64,000 bases of DNA from Metallumcola ferriviriculae (lineage in GTDB: Bacteria; Bacillota; JADQBR01): contig NZ_CP121694.1 of NCBI RefSeq assembly GCF_035573695.1, forward strand, positions 3,232,001 through 3,296,000, written 5' to 3'. The notes beneath the pieces are model-generated. The model did not search any database, was not told the DNA's origin, and worked only from the letters and a program-made list of their open reading frames with translations. A program made the translations under genes and the position numbers. Below, piece by piece: positions 24,853 through 25,543 of this stretch (its first letter is position 1; the number at the start of each line of letters is the position of its first letter).

Positions 24853-24884
24853 CCAAGAAAAAGGACGGCTGTCCAGCCGCCCTT
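24853..24884 (-). terminator. Terminator for the minus-strand glutaredoxin operon
   Basis: On the minus strand AAGGGCGGCTGGACAGCCGTCCTT forms a hairpin with an interrupted 10-bp stem, followed by TTTTTCTT. On the plus strand, after pucR, no T-tract follows, so it serves mainly the leftward genes. Confidence 0.7.
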
Positions 24885-24891
24885 AGTAAAC

Positions 24892-25077
24892 TCAACCTGT
24901 GTAGGCATGAAATATCTCGCAATCTCCCTCAGCCCAGTTGATACAATTGTCACAACGAGGGGATTCCATCCCGGAAACATTGGCCAGTGACACCCCATAG
25001 CCCTGAGCCAGTCCCACTGATTCAAATTCTGGGCAGGCATCTGCAATTCGTTCAACCAGAATGTTCCTGGTATTCAA
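24892..25077 (-). CDS. Small cysteine-containing protein downstream of the selenoprotein
   Basis: This is a protein of about 61 residues with one cysteine in ADACPEF and a C-terminal cluster CDNCINWAEGDC. I do not recognise the family. The cysteine pattern suggests a metal or redox site. GAGGTGG lies eight bases before a TTG at 25077; GTG at 25086 is an alternative. It begins 13 bases after the selenoprotein stop and ends before a terminator, so the two are probably co-transcribed. Confidence 0.6.
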   Translation of the reverse strand: MNTRNILVERIADACPEFESVGLAQGYGVSLANVSGMESPRCDNCINWAEGDCEIFHAYTG

Positions 25078-25090
25078 CCGTGCCACCACC

Positions 25091-25324
25091 TCAATGCAGC
25101 TTCTTATCAATGGCCTGCCTGTCAAAGCCAACTATTACTTCACCATCAATAGCAATAACCGGTACCGCCATCATTCCGGTCTTCTTATGCATTTCGTCGC
25201 GCGCAGCCTCATCTGAAGAGACATCCAGTTCCTTAAAAGAAACTCCCTTTTGTGAAAGATACTCTTTCACTTGTGTGCAGTGTGGTCAAGTTGGTGTAGT
25301 ATATACCGTTACGGCATGTTCCAT
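25091..25324 (-). CDS. Glutaredoxin/NrdH-like selenoprotein (in-frame UGA read as selenocysteine)
   Basis: Read from the ATG at 25324 the frame gives MEHAVTVYTTPT, then UGA, then PHCTQVKEYLSQKGV, so the redox site is UPHC where homologues have CPxC. The frame continues through the glutaredoxin landmarks AVPVIAIDGEVIVGFD to a TGA stop at 25091, 77 residues in all. AAAGGAG lies before the ATG. A stem-loop suitable as a bacterial SECIS follows the UGA. A thiol-disulfide or thioredoxin-fold redox role in the cytoplasm follows from the family. A normal gene caller would miss or split this gene. It could instead be a nonsense mutation, but the conserved position makes this unlikely. Confidence 0.82.
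25252..25288 (-). promoter_or_regulatory. UGA codon and candidate bacterial SECIS hairpin
   Basis: The UGA is at 25288-25286. Fifteen bases later on the minus strand the stem GTGAAAG / CTTTCAC closes a loop AGTAT that contains a G, so the loop lies 23-27 bases after the UGA. This is within the known spacing for bacterial SECIS elements. Confidence 0.65.
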
Positions 25325-25399
25325 CTGTAATCCATCTCCTTTCGAAGAGTTTATCCTTAGCATTCCGCCACAAACAAACTTTATTCTCTTAAAAAGGGT

Positions 25400-25543
25400 T
25401 GTTCAAAAAGTCCAACGCAGGTGAGCAGCGAATTTCTGCGTTGCTCAGTCTTCGAGACTGCTCACGTAGCCACCAGTACGCTCCGCGTCTAAAAGCCTTC
25501 GCGCCTTGAATTCTTGCTCCTGCTACGATGGACTTTTTGAACA
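25400..25543. repeat. MITE-like inverted-repeat element, 144 bp
   Basis: Perfect 15-bp terminal inverted repeats (TGTTCAAAAAGTCCA and its complement) bound a stretch without a gene. Inside, GTGAGCAG and CTGCTCAC form a second inverted repeat. The element lies between the selenoprotein gene and the dehydrogenase gene, ending five bases before the latter's stop. It is non-autonomous and would need a transposase encoded elsewhere. No clear target duplication is seen. Confidence 0.75.

Follow-up and report, generated by a model that had tools for sequence, protein, structure and literature searches.

A selenium glutaredoxin of the kind described below has reportedly been purified and crystallised. 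Selenocysteine (Sec) glutaredoxins were listed as early as 2006 (PMC1794560), and a 2026 review places them among the experimentally verified selenoproteins (PMC13188914). In Clostridium oremlandii, glutaredoxin-1 (cGrx1) and the organism's MsrA are both native selenoproteins, and cGrx1 is the proposed reductant of the selenoprotein MsrA (PMC7642778).

The locus studied here lies at 25091–25324 of the window, the whole stretch of 64,000 nucleotides that was analysed. Its gene almost certainly encodes a glutaredoxin of the YruB/Uxx-star group that is a selenoprotein, with SelB-dependent Sec at residue 13 and a probable role in thiol-disulfide exchange. The initial annotation had implied some surprise at such a gene. 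Given the 2006 listing of Sec glutaredoxins (PMC1794560), that surprise is unwarranted: the finding is correct but ordinary, and the kind is already known.

The reading frame and its family

The position given for the gene in the initial annotation holds; the strand had been left unstated, and the gene is on the minus strand. The plus strand of 25091–25324 has no comparable reading. Translated with TGA as Sec (U), the minus strand from 25324 to 25094 reads MEHAVTVYTTPT-U-PHCTQVKEYLSQKGVSFKELDVSSDEAARDEMHKKTGMMAVPVIAIDGEVIVGFDRQAIDKKLH, with one internal in-frame TGA. The features of the gene are as follows.

25091–25324, minus strand: Sec glutaredoxin gene, stop codon included; 77 amino acid residues, UPHC active site, Sec as residue 13 (translation with TGA as U, and profile scores)
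25286–25288, minus strand: Sec codon TGA at the catalytic Cys position (homologue codons TGA, 40, or TGT/TGC, 55)
25091–25093, minus strand: terminal stop codon TGA (translation)
25336–25340, minus strand: ribosome binding site AGGAG, 11 nt 5′ of the ATG (sequence)

Reading through the one UGA does restore a complete small redox protein, as had been claimed, and the Pfam Glutaredoxin match of its 77 residues spans the TGA. The other expected parts are present as well. In the UPHC motif, a resolving Cys stands three residues past the Sec (Sec13 and Cys16), the VPV cis-proline stretch is in place, and AGGAG provides the ribosome binding site ahead of the ATG.

The match to PF00462 (Glutaredoxin) runs across the TGA with E = 1.9e-22 and 79.6 bits, against a cut-off of 22.9. 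The best model is TIGR02196 (GlrX_YruB), at 104.1 bits against a cut-off of 88.55. We take the TIGR02196 model to represent CxxC proteins; the present protein has Sec instead of the first Cys. With C standing for U, the protein scores 71.6 bits on NF041212 (Uxx-star), only just above the cut-off of 66, and a six-frame search with TGA taken as a stop gives 62.4 bits for the same model. The NF041212 cut-off is passed, yet TIGR02196 describes this protein better. It had also been stated that standard annotation would show no gene here. That is doubtful: NF041212, which is in NCBI's current library, models exactly such proteins, so the gene need not escape modern annotation.

The closest solved structures are PDB 7c10 and 7c12, both "Glutaredoxin" entries, with a best E of 1.1e-21 over residues 4–75. 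Entries 7c10, 7c12, and 7c13 are presumably all C. (Alkaliphilus) oremlandii glutaredoxin-1, and cGrx1 appears to be the closest solved relative. The two proteins have in common a U(C)PxC active site and the VPV cis-Pro region; they differ in species and by a one-residue gap in the alignment.

A Sec glutaredoxin of this group might have as its main role the binding of metal(loid)s or selenium instead of thiol-disulfide exchange, as the Sec of the UXX-star family may serve as a metal ligand (PMC13188914) and the protein is above the NF041212 cut-off. We consider this role unlikely. The protein has the classical UPxC pair, its YruB glutaredoxin score is far higher, and it falls below the cut-offs of UXX-star families 1–3 (NF041114, 40.9 against 72; NF041211, 46.3 against 100; NF047338, 40.3 against 97). 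Thiol-disulfide exchange by the Sec glutaredoxin is the role that we favour.

The genome contains another glutaredoxin-like gene, a divergent one, in which TGA likewise stands first in the active site (TUSDC). It lies at L022 1501–1695 (genome 1653933–1654127), and the divergent type is also found at L023 and L021 in G002. This gene reaches the cut-off of none of the NCBIfam models that it matched, and its hairpin is shifted by one base.

Conservation of the Sec codon and of the SECIS hairpin

A named genome collection supplied 72 homologous loci, and matches were obtained in 196 of the 398 genomes searched within the phylum. The phylum search was used instead of searches at the family, order, and class levels, which covered three genomes each. 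Codons were counted on 95 loci with distinct downstream sequences. Of these 95 homologues, which come from many phyla, 40 have TGA as the catalytic codon and 55 have TGT or TGC; no other codon occurs. The claim that Sec sits exactly where the catalytic Cys belongs is borne out, and the alignment of Cys homologues that had been suggested as a check gives TGT/TGC at the Sec codon in 55 of 95 loci.

The TGA is common to 39 other homologues, several of them in other phyla. A same-family genome carries TGA at L020 (61% identical), L021, and L023; within the phylum such forms are widespread, and records from Deltaproteobacteria, Chloroflexi, Tectomicrobia, and Methylomirabilota (NC10) contain them too. 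The initial annotation had named a sequencing error, TGA for TGC or TGT, as a way in which the reading could fail; the recurrence of TGA in 39 other homologues rules that error out. More broadly, the locus might be a decayed or misread Cys glutaredoxin gene, its TGA being a real stop or a misreading of TGC/TGT, from which it differs by a single base. Against this stand the TGA in L020 and in 38 other loci and the preservation of the remaining frame and of the SECIS, and we give such decay or error practically no credence. The TGA is best read as a Sec codon.

In a tree of the 95 homologues, built on 75 columns that resolve little, the Sec/Cys label changes nine times, at least four of the changes being on well-supported branches. 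It follows that Sec and Cys have probably been exchanged several times.

A hairpin is found just 3′ of the codon.

25252–25270, minus strand: SECIS hairpin GUGAAAGA-GUA-UCUUUCAC, 8 bp, loop GUA (fold of −8.6 kcal/mol; covariation)

The hairpin begins 15 nt 3′ of the UGA, and the spacing from UGA to loop is 23 nt. The published limits for a bacterial SECIS are a loop of 3–9 nt, a stem of 4–16 bp, 16–37 nt from UGA to loop, a G within the first two loop positions, and a fold of −7.5 kcal/mol or lower (PMC13188914). With its GUA loop, 8 bp, 23 nt, and −8.6 kcal/mol, the hairpin is inside all of them, and the downstream hairpin that had been noticed at SECIS distance is confirmed, with covariation in addition. 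By itself, such a hairpin proves little, since the window contains 2061 TGA trinucleotides, and 64 of these (3.1%) come with one inside the same limits. The TGA-plus-hairpin pattern occurs once in the genome, a single contig of 3.72 Mb, and has no occurrence in the reversed control. Single-sequence folding supports a SECIS weakly, with z from −0.3 to −2.7 according to the choice of ends, and a comparative test was adopted for that reason.

At the same alignment columns, Sec forms keep 7.1 of the 8 pairs, against 3.8 of 8 in Cys forms. When the partner is slid by 1–3 columns, the Sec forms retain at most 5.85 pairs, and a synonymous-codon null that keeps each protein gives them 5.95 pairs (sd 0.16), against the 7.1 observed. 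Among 31 aligned Sec forms, three pairs have changed on both sides. The double-changed cells number 11, against 2.4 in shuffles, and none of 500 shuffles reaches as high, with relatedness inflating the counts somewhat. For instance, UA, CG, and AU all occur as the second pair from the base, depending on the genome (GTG...CAC, GCG...CGC, or GAG...CTC). The loop starts with GU in 39 of 40 Sec forms. The residues under the hairpin are K-E-F/Y-L-S in Sec forms and K-A/R/T-Y/F-L-K/S in Cys forms. Given this difference at the positions that carry the hairpin, the protein sequence just past the Sec appears to be under constraint from the SECIS RNA element.

The selenocysteine machinery and a candidate client

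The following genes of the Sec system are present (genome coordinates).

335958–337355: selA (TIGR00474, 615.8 bits)
337360–339261: selB, directly behind selA (TIGR00475, 388.7 bits)
344391: selC, tRNA-Sec, anticodon TCA (UCA)
414315: selD, with an in-frame TGA of its own

The initial annotation had predicted selA, selB, and selC and had treated their absence as fatal to its reading; all three are in the genome, the tRNA-Sec having the UCA anticodon, and selD is there as well. The conserved codon, the covarying SECIS, and the complete machinery together support, at the level of sequence, the selenoprotein interpretation first offered. The UGA might in principle be decoded as another amino acid, through Trp read-through or near-cognate suppression. 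Nothing specific speaks for this, the position is otherwise always a catalytic Cys and never Trp, a complete Sec system is encoded in the genome, and a covarying SECIS follows the codon; its probability is negligible, and Sec remains the preferred decoding. Pseudogene, sequencing error, and Trp read-through were each rejected on codon conservation.

Just downstream of the tRNA-Sec are a MarR-like regulator and two arsenite-methyltransferase-like genes (L017 11714–13801, genome about 344713–346800), named from their translations alone.

In the mechanism that we propose, tRNA-Sec(UCA) would be charged with Sec by SelA and SelD, and SelB would bind the hairpin just past the UGA, so that Sec would be put in at residue 13. 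We infer actual insertion at that residue from the sequence. The target of the Sec13 selenolate would then be a disulfide or an oxidised (seleno)enzyme, and the mixed bond formed by this attack would be resolved by Cys16.

One client would be the selenoprotein MsrA of the genome.

1429399–1429803 (genome; L159): MsrA with an in-frame TGA

This is the one MsrA match in the genome, and its TGA is at the catalytic position, ATFALG-U-FWGPDARFG (GUFWGP). As in C. oremlandii, a Sec glutaredoxin and a selenoprotein MsrA occur together in one organism, and by analogy with the proposal for that species MsrA is likely to be among the clients. A glutamate-cysteine ligase of the PF04262 type, the one type looked for, was not found in the genome, which suggests that the electron donor may not be glutathione.

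The neighbouring gene and the place of the finding

Two further features lie behind the glutaredoxin gene.

24892–25086, minus strand: orf64, a small four-Cys protein with a GTG start, 64 amino acid residues, CPEFES ... RCDNCINWAEGDC
24861–24884, minus strand: terminator-like hairpin and T run behind orf64 (one such hairpin in the scan, against 0.8 expected by shuffling)

The start of orf64 is 4 nt past the glutaredoxin stop, and the two genes are probably on the same mRNA. The orf64 protein matches no Pfam family. Its homologues, with four conserved cysteines, are found in 28 of the 398 genomes of the phylum, and the pattern CPx[FY][ED]S ... RC[DN]xCxxWxxGxC is visible in many of their translations. 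A constant linkage to the glutaredoxin was considered and rejected: the genes are adjacent here, and in G111 they are 0.8 kb apart and separated by two other small genes. In G040 and G381 the distance is 20–24 kb, and elsewhere orf64 homologues adjoin YchF and NUDIX genes. An unrecognised two-gene redox or metal-handling module, in which the orf64 protein would serve the Sec glutaredoxin as a dedicated partner or substrate, is unlikely.

A MITE-like element occupies 25401–25542, with terminal inverted repeats GTTCAAAAAGTCCA / TGGACTTTTTGAAC. It folds far better than shuffles (z = −3.9), and its repeat arms recur at two places in L005, another part of the genome.

The gene is a well-supported addition to the known Sec glutaredoxins and leaves the current understanding of them unchanged; orf64 is one small addition beyond them. 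With this genome, a further lineage is seen to combine a Sec glutaredoxin and a Sec MsrA. In the glutaredoxin family, the SECIS has been kept across phyla and has apparently left its mark on the protein.
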